DNA of 49,697 nt, taken from positions 43,420-93,116 of the forward strand of contig NZ_JH591189.1 in NCBI RefSeq assembly GCF_000242435.1, written 5' to 3'. The notes beneath the pieces were generated by a model. It was not told where the DNA came from. It saw only the letters and a list, made by a program, of their open reading frames with translations, and ran no database searches. The stretch comes from Dialister succinatiphilus YIT 11850. GTDB lineage: Bacteria > Bacillota > Negativicutes > Veillonellales > Dialisteraceae. Below, piece by piece: positions 19,775 through 33,020 of the stretch (position 1 is the first letter of the stretch; each line of letters starts with the position of its first letter). The position numbers and the translations under genes were made by a program.

Positions 19775-19794
19775 GACAACCGAATATGAAAAGA

Positions 19795-19972
19795 AAGGTG
19801 CCCTGAGGGCTTAATAGGGAAGACCGGTGAAAAGCCGGCACGGTCCCGCCACTGTAATGCGGAGCGAATCCAATGATGTCACTGAGAAATCGGGAAGACG
19901 GATAGCGAGGAAGCAGAGTCAGGAGAACTGCCTGTCTTATATCACCGTTTGAACCCACGAGCGATGGGAAGG
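19795..19972 (+). promoter_or_regulatory. Cobalamin riboswitch, first copy
   Basis: The conserved core GAAAAGCCGGCACGGTCCC followed by GCCACTG is at 19829-19853 and the B12 box AGTCAGGAGAACTGCC at 19917-19932. The aptamer then continues through a conserved segment ending GCGATGGGAAGG. Known members bind adenosyl- or other cobalamins and usually switch off B12 synthesis, transport or B12-independent isozymes. A terminator hairpin follows at 19990. The core of this copy is identical to that of the second copy over about 55 bases, so the pair arose by a fairly recent duplication. Confidence 0.93.
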
Positions 19973-20018: not shown

Positions 20019-20064
20019 ATGGGTTGAACATTCGGTTATTGAGGAGCACAATTTCATAAGTAAA

Positions 20065-20247
20065 GCAGGTGCCCATAAGGGCTTAATAGGGAAGACCGGT
20101 GAAAAGCCGGCACGGTCCCGCCACTGTAATGCAGAGCAAATCCAACAGAAGTCACTGAGGAAATTGGGAAGGCTGGAGGCGCGAGGAAGCAGAGTCAGGA
20201 GAACTGCCTGTTTTGTATCACCGTTTGACCTACGAGCGATGGGAAGG
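20065..20247 (+). promoter_or_regulatory. Cobalamin riboswitch, second copy
   Basis: Same organisation as copy 1: conserved core at about 20098-20123, B12 box AGTCAGGAGAACTGCC at 20193-20208, and the GCGATGGGAAGG tail. The variable arm between core and B12 box differs in sequence (20131-20185). No promoter is seen between the copies, so both lie on one transcript. Its own terminator follows at 20285. No cobalamin, transporter or B12-dependent enzyme gene lies downstream. Confidence 0.93.
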
Positions 20248-29234: not shown

Positions 29235-29315
29235 CTTTATAGGTATAAAGGCAAAGCAGGTGAAAATCTGTGACGCAAAACTATAGGGCCTGTTACATGG
29301 CAGCCAGCTGCAACG
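29235..29315 (+). promoter_or_regulatory. c-di-GMP-I (GEMM) riboswitch
   Basis: Conserved elements appear in order: AAAGGCAAAGC (29247), a short GAAA-type arm, GTGACGCAAAACTA (29270-29283), GGGCCT, and ATGGCAGCCAGCTGC (29297-29311). This is the GEMM-I aptamer pattern, which binds bis-(3'-5')-cyclic di-GMP. Two terminator hairpins lie between it and the start of a diguanylate cyclase gene, so c-di-GMP probably feeds back on its own synthesis. The sign of control cannot be read off with confidence. Confidence 0.88.
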
Positions 29316-29424: not shown

Positions 29425-30795
29425 ATGGAAGATGACAAGTTTATACCGGACCTGGATATGAATGTGCCGGTAGCCTATGCTGCTTTTGAAGTAGTGATGG
29501 ATGAGGAAAAGAAAAAGGCCATAGACGCCATCTATGTATATGTCAATAAGGCATACTGCGAAATGGTGGGGAAAGATAAGTCCGAGCTCATGGGCCGCTC
29601 TTTCTTGTCCGTCTATGACAATGCCGATGAAAAATGGTTCGACTACTGCTATGAAGCGGCTCAGGGAAAAAGGATACGGAACCGCATGTACAGCCGGGAA
29701 GTGGGCCACTGGCTGGAATTTGAAGTGGAGCCGGCCGGTGAAGGCCGGGCGGCCTTCATCTTCATGAATGTGGATCTGGACCATGTGGAACGGATGAACC
29801 TCCGCCAGTCCACCAACACTGACGATATTATCATCAAGCTGGTGAAAATCATGGACGGCGGGGAAAGCTACGAAAAAGCGGTGAACCACATGCTGGCTGA
29901 GCTGGGTACCATTATTCATGCCGACCGCCTCTACATTCTGGAAACGGACGGAAAGACAGCAAGCAATACCTTTGAATGGTGCCGGGAAGGGGTAAAGCCT
30001 GAAATCGACACGCTCCAGAATCTTCCCTATGACGAATATATCGGCGGCTGGGAAAAATACCTGGTTCGCAATACCAGTCTGGTGCTGGAAGACATCGGCG
30101 TTCTGGCGGCTGATGACCCTGTGGACTATGAAAACCTGAAACGGCAGGGCATACGGAATATTATGGATTCCCCCATTTACGATGGCGGAAAACTTATCGG
30201 CTACATCGGCGCCGATAACTATGAAATCAGCGATGCAGTAAATACCCAGAAAATATTGGAAACTATTTCCTATTTTCTGGGAGCCCGCATGGTGAACCAG
30301 AAGCTCCTTTCCCGGCTGGACTACCTGAGCCACCGGGACATGCTGACCGGTGTGAGAAACAGAAACAGCTTCATGGAAAAGCTGGAAGAACTGGAGGGGC
30401 TGGCACACCCGGCGGGCATCGTATTCGGCGATGTGAACGGACTGAAAAGGGCCAATGATGAAGAGGGCCACGTGGCAGGAGACAGGCTCCTCCGGCGGGC
30501 GGCAAAGGCCATGCAGCAGTTCTGGGGCGATGAGTTCGTATACCGCGCCGGGGGAGACGAATTCGTGGTCCTTCTGCCGGATATTTCTGAATGTGCCTTT
30601 TACAGGAAATTTGAAGAATTTTATGATGCCATGAAGGCCAAAGAGAATATGTCCATTGCCCTCGGCGCCCAGTGGGCCGAAAGCGGCAGCCATCTCAATG
30701 CTGCCTTCAACCAGGCAGACCGGAAAATGTATCAGGATAAGAAAAAATACTACCATCTCTGCCTCACGGAAATGGATCCGGAAAAGGTGAAATGA
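29425..30795 (+). CDS. Diguanylate cyclase, PAS-GAF-GGDEF
   Basis: A 456-residue protein. PAS-like domain at about 15-120, GAF domain about 145-290 (with NTFEWCREGV), GGDEF domain 305-456 with the intact active motif G376-G-D-E-F380. No RxxD inhibitory site is visible upstream of it. It would make c-di-GMP from two GTP. No membrane segment, so cytoplasmic. The GAF-GGDEF part is clearly related to the C-terminus of the giant c-di-GMP protein at 350-4858 (shared NTFEWCREGV and L.Y.EY.G.W..YL). It is under a c-di-GMP-I riboswitch. Confidence 0.93.
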   Translation: MEDDKFIPDLDMNVPVAYAAFEVVMDEEKKKAIDAIYVYVNKAYCEMVGKDKSELMGRSFLSVYDNADEKWFDYCYEAAQGKRIRNRMYSREVGHWLEFEVEPAGEGRAAFIFMNVDLDHVERMNLRQSTNTDDIIIKLVKIMDGGESYEKAVNHMLAELGTIIHADRLYILETDGKTASNTFEWCREGVKPEIDTLQNLPYDEYIGGWEKYLVRNTSLVLEDIGVLAADDPVDYENLKRQGIRNIMDSPIYDGGKLIGYIGADNYEISDAVNTQKILETISYFLGARMVNQKLLSRLDYLSHRDMLTGVRNRNSFMEKLEELEGLAHPAGIVFGDVNGLKRANDEEGHVAGDRLLRRAAKAMQQFWGDEFVYRAGGDEFVVLLPDISECAFYRKFEEFYDAMKAKENMSIALGAQWAESGSHLNAAFNQADRKMYQDKKKYYHLCLTEMDPEKVK

Positions 30796-30839: not shown

Positions 30840-30868
30840 TTGACAAGACCGGTCCCATTGGCTACAAT
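30840..30868 (+). promoter_or_regulatory. Promoter of the T-box leader
   Basis: TTGACA at 30840-30845, 17-base spacer, TACAAT at 30863-30868. Confidence 0.85.
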
Positions 30869-30874
30869 GGACAC

Positions 30875-31180
30875 ATATCAAAAAAGTGCTGATGGAAAAA
30901 AGTACTCATTTTGGAAGCCAAGCAGAGAGCCGGCATTGGGTGGGAACCGGCGGCGGAGGAATGAGGAAGTTCTTTCCTGAACTGCGCGGCTGAACGTAAA
31001 AGTAGGCTGCGACGCATGCCCCCGTTACCGGGCGTAGAGTTGATCTGATGAAGATAATTTGGGTGGTACCACGGATAATCCGTCCCTTGGGTACCACCCT
31101 TTTGTGTTGATTCAGGTAAACAGGGTGGTACCGCGATGTGTCCCGTCGTCCCTTGCTTAGAAATAAGCAGGGGACTTTTG
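30875..31180 (+). promoter_or_regulatory. T-box leader with Phe-type specifier and two antiterminator/terminator modules
   Basis: Stem I shows AGTA (30901-30904), helix CTCATT/AATGAG (30905-30910 with 30960-30965), GGAAA/TTTCC (30894-30898 with 30973-30977), AGAGAGCCGGC and a GGTGGGAACC-like apical part. The specifier loop strand between the helices is GAAGTTC (30966-30972), giving TTC (Phe) as specifier. The T-box motif TGGTACC occurs twice: 31064-31070, with terminator 31061-31070/31090-31099 plus TTTT, and 31126-31132, with terminator 31148-31175 plus TTTT. The TGGT bulge fits a tRNA with discriminator A73, as tRNA-Phe has. Uncharged tRNA would allow read-through into pheC. Confidence 0.88.
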
Positions 31181-31214
31181 ATTTTCATAAAGGAAAGCAT
31201 GGGAGGATGGAAAG

Positions 31215-31994
31215 ATGGATATGAAGAAAATAGCAGGAGCCGCCGTTTTGGCAGCAGGGCTTCTCCTGGGAGGCGCCGGCAGCGTTTGGGCCGCCCATTT
31301 GGAAGATATTGCAGCCCGGGGGACCCTCCGGGTGGGTACCACCGGTGATTATCGGCCCATGTCCTATAAGGACGCTGATGGGAAGTATGAAGGCTTTGAT
31401 ACAGAACTGGCAGAAAAACTGGCAGACTCCCTTCATGTGAAGGTGGAGTACGTGCCCACCACATGGAAGACCCTTTCCGCCGATACGGCAGCAGGAAAGT
31501 TTGACCTGGCCCTCTGCGGCATTACAAGAACCTTTGACCGGGAAAGGACCCTGGCCATGTCTGATGGCTACCTCCTCTTCGGCAAGACCATTCTCTGCCG
31601 GAAGGGAGAGGAAGGAAAGTACAAGTCCCTGGCGGACCTGGACAGGCCGGAGGTGAAGGTCATGGTGAATCCGGGCGGAACCAATGAGAAATTTGCCAAG
31701 AGCCGCCTGACCCACGCCACCCTTCTCATCCATGAGAAGAATGCAGAAATCCCTTCCCTCATAGCGGAAGGAAAGGCGGATATCATGATTACGGAAACCA
31801 TGGAAGCCAGGCGGTATGTGCGCATGAATGAAAAGCTGGCGGCGCCATTGGTGGACAAGCCCTTTACCAGAAGCCGTTTCGGCGCCCTCATGGCCAAGGG
31901 AGACCAGGATTTTCTGAACTATGTGAATTTCTTCCTGGCAGAAATGGAAACTGACGGTACCATGGATGCACTGGAAGATACATACATTAAATAA
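31215..31994 (+). CDS. pheC: Cyclohexadienyl dehydratase (periplasmic prephenate/arogenate dehydratase)
   Basis: A 259-residue protein with a signal peptide (cleavage after VWA near residue 24) and the type 2 periplasmic-binding-protein fold. It matches PheC of Pseudomonas aeruginosa better than amino-acid-binding proteins: LRVGTTGDYRPMSYKD at about 36-51, and VNPGGTNEKFAKSRL near 150, the latter almost identical in PheC. PheC converts prephenate to phenylpyruvate or arogenate to phenylalanine outside the cytoplasm. The Phe-specific T-box upstream supports this call independently. The alternative is a solute-binding protein of an amino-acid ABC transporter. GGGAGG precedes the ATG; a nearer ATG at 31207 is out of frame. 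Confidence 0.78.
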   Translation: MDMKKIAGAAVLAAGLLLGGAGSVWAAHLEDIAARGTLRVGTTGDYRPMSYKDADGKYEGFDTELAEKLADSLHVKVEYVPTTWKTLSADTAAGKFDLALCGITRTFDRERTLAMSDGYLLFGKTILCRKGEEGKYKSLADLDRPEVKVMVNPGGTNEKFAKSRLTHATLLIHEKNAEIPSLIAEGKADIMITETMEARRYVRMNEKLAAPLVDKPFTRSRFGALMAKGDQDFLNYVNFFLAEMETDGTMDALEDTYIK

Positions 31995-32024: not shown

Positions 32025-33020
32025 ATGAAGACATGGATGAAAATGAGCATGGCAGCAGCTTTGGCAGCAGCAGCACTGGTATATGGAGGATGCGGCGGCA
32101 GTCAGCCCAAGGGCGGCGCCGGCTCTGCTTCCGGAAAACCGATTATCGGCGTGGTGCAGATCGTGCAGCATGGATCTCTGGATCAGGCCAATAAGGGCTT
32201 CGTAGACGGCTTAAAGGAAAGGGGCTATGGCGAGGATAAGGTCACCTTTGATCAGCAGAATGCCCAGGGCGACCAGTCCAACCTGAAAACCATCGCATCC
32301 CGCTTCAAATCAGAAAAGCCGAAACTCATCTGCGCCATTGCTACTCCTGCAGCCCAGGCGGTGGCCAATGAAATCAAGGATATTCCCATCGTAGGCACTG
32401 CCATTACGGACTATACCACGGCCAAACTGGTGAAGAATGATGAAAAGCCCGGCGGCAACGTGACCGGCGTCAGCGATCTGGCTTCCATTGATGCCCAGAT
32501 GGATCTGGGAAGGGCCCTGGTCCCCAATGCCAAGACGGTGGGACTCATTTACTCCTCCAGCGAGGTCAACAGTGAAGTCCAGGCCAACATGATGAAGGAT
32601 TACTGCAAAAAGAACAATTTGGCCGTAGAGGAGAGAACTGTAAACAGCGTGAACGATATCCAGCAGGTGGCGGAATCCCTGGCAGGCAAGGTGGATTTCA
32701 TCTATGTACCTACCGATAACACCCTGGCTTCCTCCATCCCCACTCTGATGAAGGTCACCGATGCCAATAAGATTCCGGTCATCGTGGGAGCCGACATTAT
32801 GGCCAAAGACGGCGCACTGGCCGCTCTTTCCGTAGACTACTACAAACTGGGCGTTCAGACAGGCCACATGGCCGCTGATATCCTGGACGGCAAAATCAAG
32901 CCGGAAACTGCAGCCATCCAGCACCAGAAGGAATACACTATTGTCATCAATAAGAAGGATGCCGACATTCTGGGAATCAAGATTCCTGATGAAATTGCAA
33001 AGAAAGCACAGATGGTTTAA
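32025..33020 (+). CDS. TrpX-like ABC substrate-binding lipoprotein
   Basis: A 331-residue protein of the ABC_sub_bind family (TrpX/YtfQ-like type 1 fold). The signal ends in a lipobox with C23 (ALVYGGC), so it is a membrane-anchored lipoprotein. Motifs include GVVQIVQHGSLDQANKGFVDGL and VGLIYSSSEVNSE, common in TrpX proteins proposed to bind tryptophan. It lies 30 bases after pheC with a GGGGAGG site, so it is probably under the same Phe T-box, suggesting an aromatic amino acid or precursor as ligand. The permease and ATPase genes usually next to it are absent. Confidence 0.82.
   Translation: MKTWMKMSMAAALAAAALVYGGCGGSQPKGGAGSASGKPIIGVVQIVQHGSLDQANKGFVDGLKERGYGEDKVTFDQQNAQGDQSNLKTIASRFKSEKPKLICAIATPAAQAVANEIKDIPIVGTAITDYTTAKLVKNDEKPGGNVTGVSDLASIDAQMDLGRALVPNAKTVGLIYSSSEVNSEVQANMMKDYCKKNNLAVEERTVNSVNDIQQVAESLAGKVDFIYVPTDNTLASSIPTLMKVTDANKIPVIVGADIMAKDGALAALSVDYYKLGVQTGHMAADILDGKIKPETAAIQHQKEYTIVINKKDADILGIKIPDEIAKKAQMV

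Follow-up and report, generated by a model that had tools for sequence, protein, structure and literature searches.

A predicted tRNA-Phe T-box with two switching modules upstream of the gene of an exported cyclohexadienyl dehydratase homologue in Dialister succinatiphilus

Why would a bacterium place a gene for an exported enzyme of phenylalanine synthesis behind a sensor of tRNA charging? The role of exported cyclohexadienyl dehydratase (CDT) has been called controversial, and both a 'hidden overflow pathway' and signalling have been proposed (PMC10520331). The question is raised here by a 49,697-nucleotide stretch of the genome of the gut bacterium Dialister succinatiphilus YIT 11850 (the window; bases 43420-93116 of contig C3), where a pheC-like gene follows a T-box leader. 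The first-pass annotation of this DNA had proposed that starvation for charged tRNA-Phe turns on an extracytoplasmic phenylalanine route.

Identity and specifier of the T-box leader

The Rfam covariance model for T-box leaders (RF00230) matched the forward strand at 30880-31090 with 130.5 bits (E 8.1e-29), above the gathering score of 93 bits, and the match covers Stem I, the middle stems and the first antiterminator. The start had earlier been placed at 30970, which is the specifier itself; the T-box begins 90 bases upstream of it. Genome-wide, 37 RF00230 matches were found in 2.5 Mb, one of them partial. Directly upstream of the leader lies a likely sigma-70 promoter (TTGACA-17-TACAAT, forward strand, 30840-30868), called from its consensus match only (11 of 12 positions) where about 1.7 promoter-like sites per region are expected by chance; its placement fits.

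The specifier was calibrated within the genome itself. UUC lies in the Stem I internal loop of this leader (30970-30972, forward strand), and the Rfam alignment columns at which it stands were used to read the specifiers of nine further T-boxes in the genome, all in front of genes named by NCBIfam. In all nine cases the codon corresponded to the amino acid of the downstream gene (PheS UUC, ThrS ACC, CysS UGC, TrpD UGG, TrpE UGG, IleS AUC, ValS GUC, SerC UCC and an OAH/OAS sulfhydrylase UGC), and because of this agreement the UUC of the pheC leader is read as phenylalanine. An alternative specifier frame is ruled out, since the nine calibrating T-boxes share the same columns. UUC was also unchanged across nine related leaders, and the covariance alignment retained it, upholding the phenylalanine codon that the first-pass annotation had recognised. 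UUC is the specifier in 99% of the phenylalanine T-boxes in TBDB (PMC7778990).

A single tRNA-Phe was found in the genome, with anticodon GAA and the 3' end GCACCA. Its discriminator is therefore A, and its terminal ACCA pairs with the UGGU bulge of the first antiterminator (31064-31067), so that the fit to a discriminator-A tRNA suggested earlier holds for the host's own tRNA-Phe at both the specifier (UUC with GAA) and the bulge. Elsewhere in the genome the bulges read UGGC in Trp leaders and UGGA in Thr and Cys leaders, as expected from the usual discriminators. A predicted tRNA-Phe switch in front of pheC is thus well supported by the DNA sequence. The leader shares with transcriptional RF00230 T-boxes a full Stem I, the UUC specifier, the UGGU bulge, an antiterminator/terminator and a downstream amino-acid gene, but differs from them in that its one Stem I is followed by two antiterminator/terminator modules and its first terminator (T1) pairs with the bulge.

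Other structured RNAs were also seen. Within the window, a c-di-GMP-I riboswitch (53.9 bits, 29240-29315) precedes a PAS/GGDEF diguanylate cyclase gene (29425-30795), so this c-di-GMP maker seems to be controlled by its own signal, and tandem cobalamin riboswitches lie 100 bases apart at 19779-19949 and 20050-20225. Elsewhere in the genome, a raiA RNA (189 bits, L022:1259-1461) ends 40 bases upstream of the CysS T-box.

The PheC-like protein and its operon partner

The gene behind the leader (31215-31994, forward strand) encodes a 259-residue protein that homology, active-site residues and a tree identify as an exported CDT homologue. Judged by eye, its hydrophobic N-terminus and AxA-like cleavage site (...SVWA/AHLED) form a Sec-type signal peptide, which is also present in relatives. 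Negativicutes possess an outer membrane, and with the signal peptide a periplasmic location would be expected.

The Pfam match of the protein is to family 3 solute-binding proteins (SBPs), and its best matches in the PDB were AncCDT-3 (5jos, 273 bits; 54% identity), followed by AncCDT-5, AncCDT-1 and PaCDT, the PheC of Pseudomonas aeruginosa (3KBR/5HPQ; 174 bits, 41% identity). The protein contains both motifs first taken as signs of PheC, GTTGDYRP and VNPGGTNEKFA. All nine active-site residues of PaCDT (Y22, W60, K100, N128, T132, N133, N152, T169 and E173; PMC10520331) are conserved, as Y46, W84, K124, N152, T156, N157, N176, T193 and E197. A further 34 full-length homologous loci, 31 of them distinct, carry the same nine, whereas the full set is missing from AncCDT-1 and from eight SBP paralogues in the Dialister genome. 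In a tree whose sample held few outside CDTs, ancestral reconstructions as landmarks and some long branches, PheC and its relatives grouped with PaCDT, AncCDT-3 and AncCDT-5 on a branch supported at 100/100, with AncCDT-1 and the genome's own SBPs outside. The phylogeny with mapped catalytic residues that had been suggested as a check therefore places the protein among CDTs and not among amino-acid-binding proteins, and an ordinary amino-acid SBP is ruled out as the main reading by catalytic residues that the paralogues lack.

Catalysis by the PheC-like protein is likely on these grounds. However, its closest solved relative, AncCDT-3, has all nine residues and yet is only weakly active, with a kcat/KM of 6-155 per M per s where that of PaCDT is about 10^6, which makes it about 10^4- to 10^5-fold less efficient (PMC7683729). 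Conservation of the residues is therefore evidence for an efficient enzyme but not proof of one. Residue 188 of the Dialister protein is Leu, the residue of the more active AncCDT-3 variant (PMC7683729).

A second gene starts 30 bp downstream of pheC, probably in the same operon, and encodes a trpX-like ABC substrate-binding protein (32025-33020, forward strand, 331 codons; NCBIfam TrpX model and PF04392). It follows pheC at all seven T-box loci; in one relative (G011, L067:4753-6865) two trpX-like genes stand there, not one. The TrpX model covers the protein over nearly its full length at 355 bits, below the 390 cut-off, and the protein is accordingly treated as related to, rather than assigned as, the TrpX of TrpXYZ ABC transporters. 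It further differs from such a TrpX in being under Phe rather than Trp control and in its surroundings, as no permease or ATPase gene was found in the pheC operon. A set comprising TrpX, a second binding protein, a permease and an ATPase on contig C1 (403-407 kb) could serve the trpX-like protein.

These neighbours bear on another reading of PheC, as a protein that is not an enzyme in vivo but binds an aromatic acid (prephenate or phenylpyruvate, for example) and, with the TrpX-like protein, would form an uptake system induced by phenylalanine starvation. The Pfam family, the adjoining gene for another binding protein, the barely active AncCDT-3 (PMC7683729) and the sodium symporter driven by the same T-box type in the genomes RUG048 and RUG113 (see below) would all suit such a system. 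We nevertheless consider it rather unlikely, given that the nine catalytic residues, including E197, the equivalent of the general acid Glu173, are kept in all full-length homologues checked, down to about 60% identity, that AncCDT-3, AncCDT-5 and PaCDT have lost proteinogenic amino acid binding (PMC7683729), and that no permease gene adjoins pheC.

Two antiterminator/terminator modules behind one Stem I

The first antiterminator (31061-31086, forward strand), which carries the UGGU bulge already described, was identified by the Rfam match, folding and comparison of leaders. It overlaps T1 (31061-31103, forward strand), in which GGGTGGTACC is paired with GGTACCACCC and followed by TTTTGTGTT; the hairpin at 31061-31099 with its TTTTGTGTT tail folds at -23.9 kcal/mol. 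A second antiterminator (GGGTGGTACCGCG...TCGTCCC, 31121-31153, forward strand, UGGU at 31126-31129) is recognised as a conserved repeat with no second Stem I upstream of it. It overlaps a second, canonical terminator, T2 (31148-31185, forward strand), consisting of a 12-bp stem (31148-31175; -20.7 kcal/mol) and TTTTGATTTT, and this second module of antiterminator and terminator spans 31121-31175. Folding and conservation thus predict two overlapping pairs of mutually exclusive antiterminator and terminator.

The duplication is also evident in the repeats: GGGTGGTACCRCG occurs in the window only at 31061 and 31123 (0.00 expected in shuffles), and the copies of GGGTGGTACC at the same two positions are 62 nt apart. 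This spacing is too short to hold a second Stem I and rules out a full second T-box behind the first, so that the leader consists of one Stem I and two modules. The double arrangement, with a spacing of 60-65 nt, is shared by seven Dialisteraceae pheC leaders and two further ones, from RUG048 and RUG113. A hairpin occupies the T1 position in all nine, and the arms of T2 vary between Dialisteraceae genomes yet keep their pairing.

Within the genome, doubled modules were clear in three other leaders, those of a LivK-like gene (L004), a LivH-like gene (L009; both names assigned by eye) and SerC (L024), and are therefore not special to pheC. The SerC T-box has two antiterminators with differing bulges, UGGU and then UGGC. 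T-boxes with duplicated terminator-antiterminator elements were reportedly described as a class by Vitreschak et al. in 2008 (RNA 14:717); a literature search for duplicated-module T-boxes gave no match. The pheC leader has one sensing domain and two switching modules in common with this class and with 'partially tandem T-boxes', whose mode of action is stated as unknown (PMC7583486), but differs in that its gene encodes an exported CDT and its first terminator sequesters the bulge.

This sequestration sets T1 apart. Terminators in the genome are usually built with the antiterminator's 3' half, and T1 was alone among the genome's first terminators folded in having a strong stem through the bulge. 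The strand that carries the bulge is bound by the 3' arm of T1, GGTACCACCC, so that the terminator hides UGGU; this arm itself contains ACCA, like the tRNA end. The short U-run of T1 (TTTTGTGTT) and its unusual design mean that one of the two modules may do little, and the second module could be a dead duplicate, with a single module regulating. We regard this as unlikely, because nine leaders from two families retain the UGGU bulge and the hairpin of each module as well as the 60-65 nt spacing, even though the arms have changed in sequence.

Distribution, pathway context and proposed mechanism

Orthologues of pheC (E below 1e-55) were found in 145 of 380 Negativicutes genomes and 33 of 102 genera. 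An RF00230 leader stands at six other Dialisteraceae pheC genes, and the T-box, pheC and the trpX-like gene occur together at seven of the eight Dialisteraceae pheC loci; in the Dialisteraceae genome G007, the search upstream of pheC gave no T-box. Beyond this family, pheC orthologues occupy variable contexts, and none of the Acidaminococcaceae and Selenomonadaceae loci scanned had a T-box upstream of pheC. Control by a T-box therefore looks like a Dialisteraceae trait, and its presence on pheC across Negativicutes is not borne out. In RUG048 and RUG113, two Acidaminococcaceae-type genomes, a doubled UUC T-box (L063:4873-5160 and L065:4820-5105) lies before a sodium:solute symporter gene next to pheC. 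Their pheC is about 80% identical to that of Dialister and nests among Dialister sequences in the tree, which suggests transfer between families, and the doubled T-box at the symporter likewise suggests horizontal transfer and a Phe-linked transporter.

The remainder of the pathway constrains what PheC could contribute. An ordinary cytoplasmic prephenate dehydratase is encoded directly downstream of aroC, elsewhere in the Dialister genome, and a PF00800 protein is present in five of the six other T-box-pheC genomes. The exported enzyme is therefore not needed to complete the pathway, and PheC as the sole route to phenylalanine is ruled out. The sixth genome is that of the nearest relative (G005, L033), which has an internal TAG in pheC and no detected PF00800 prephenate dehydratase, and which may therefore need external phenylalanine. 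One chorismate mutase domain was found in the Dialister genome, of 95 aa and without a signal peptide; no exported chorismate mutase was found there, so that it is not obvious where prephenate would arise in the periplasm. A full pathway in the periplasm, like that of Pseudomonas, is accordingly unsupported, and PheC would depend on substrate that leaks from the cell or is supplied externally. The Dialister protein resembles PaCDT in its nine active-site residues, signal peptide and protein family, and as an exported enzyme alongside a cytoplasmic prephenate dehydratase; it differs in sequence, in its control by tRNA-Phe and in the absence of a detectable exported chorismate mutase. Of the extracytoplasmic route in the first-pass annotation, then, the Phe-specific T-box before an exported CDT-like protein stands, whereas the route itself is weakened by the cytoplasmic prephenate dehydratase and the sole detected chorismate mutase, which has no export signal. 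That annotation did not include the second module, the bulge-pairing T1, the trpX-like gene, the cytoplasmic prephenate dehydratase or the lack of a detected exported chorismate mutase.

From features that can be read directly in the DNA (the T-box and its specifier, two modules, an export signal, nine catalytic residues and a conserved operon) we infer the physiology of the operon, including the activity of the enzyme, the origin of its substrate, what the binding protein captures and how the two gates act in series. Our main reading, to which we give a probability of roughly 0.6, is that phenylalanine starvation induces a periplasmic convert-and-capture operon composed of a tRNA-Phe T-box with two serial modules, an exported PheC and a TrpX-like capture protein. 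The leader would act as a transcription-terminating T-box for tRNA-Phe, its single Stem I followed by the two modules one after the other. When uncharged, this tRNA would set its anticodon on the UUC specifier and its ACCA end on the UGGU bulges, preventing first T1 and then T2, so that pheC and the trpX-like gene are transcribed; with charged tRNA-Phe there would be no 3'-end pairing, and transcription would stop at T1 or T2. Two serial terminators may lower leakage and steepen the response. Once exported to the periplasm, PheC would dehydrate prephenate or arogenate that has escaped from the cell or reaches it from neighbours, yielding phenylpyruvate or phenylalanine outside the cytoplasm, and the TrpX-like protein may help to capture the aromatic product, possibly via a TrpXYZ-type ABC transporter encoded elsewhere. 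Because the cell completes the pathway without PheC, the enzyme is read as an emergency or scavenging step and not as the main route. A more specific version, with a true Phe-starvation enzyme harvesting leaked or neighbours' prephenate or arogenate, charging checked twice and T1 and the 3' end of the tRNA in direct competition for the bulge, is possible but tentative.

That the exported enzyme instead serves sensing or interbacterial signalling, a role suggested from gene neighbourhoods for exported chorismate mutase-CDT fusion enzymes (PMC10520331), with T-box control incidental, is very unlikely here, as the operon holds no receptor or signalling gene and tRNA-Phe charging control is conserved with the same operon across Dialisteraceae, linking the gene to the supply of phenylalanine.

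Each component, whether T-box, doubled module or exported CDT, is already known; no paper on the combination of a T-box with a cyclohexadienyl dehydratase was found in the open-access literature searched, an incomplete set. In the pheC leader, partially tandem T-boxes gain a conserved representative. The conserved tRNA-Phe sensor before pheC constitutes regulatory evidence for a role of the exported enzyme in phenylalanine supply in Dialisteraceae, and makes the question of that role testable.
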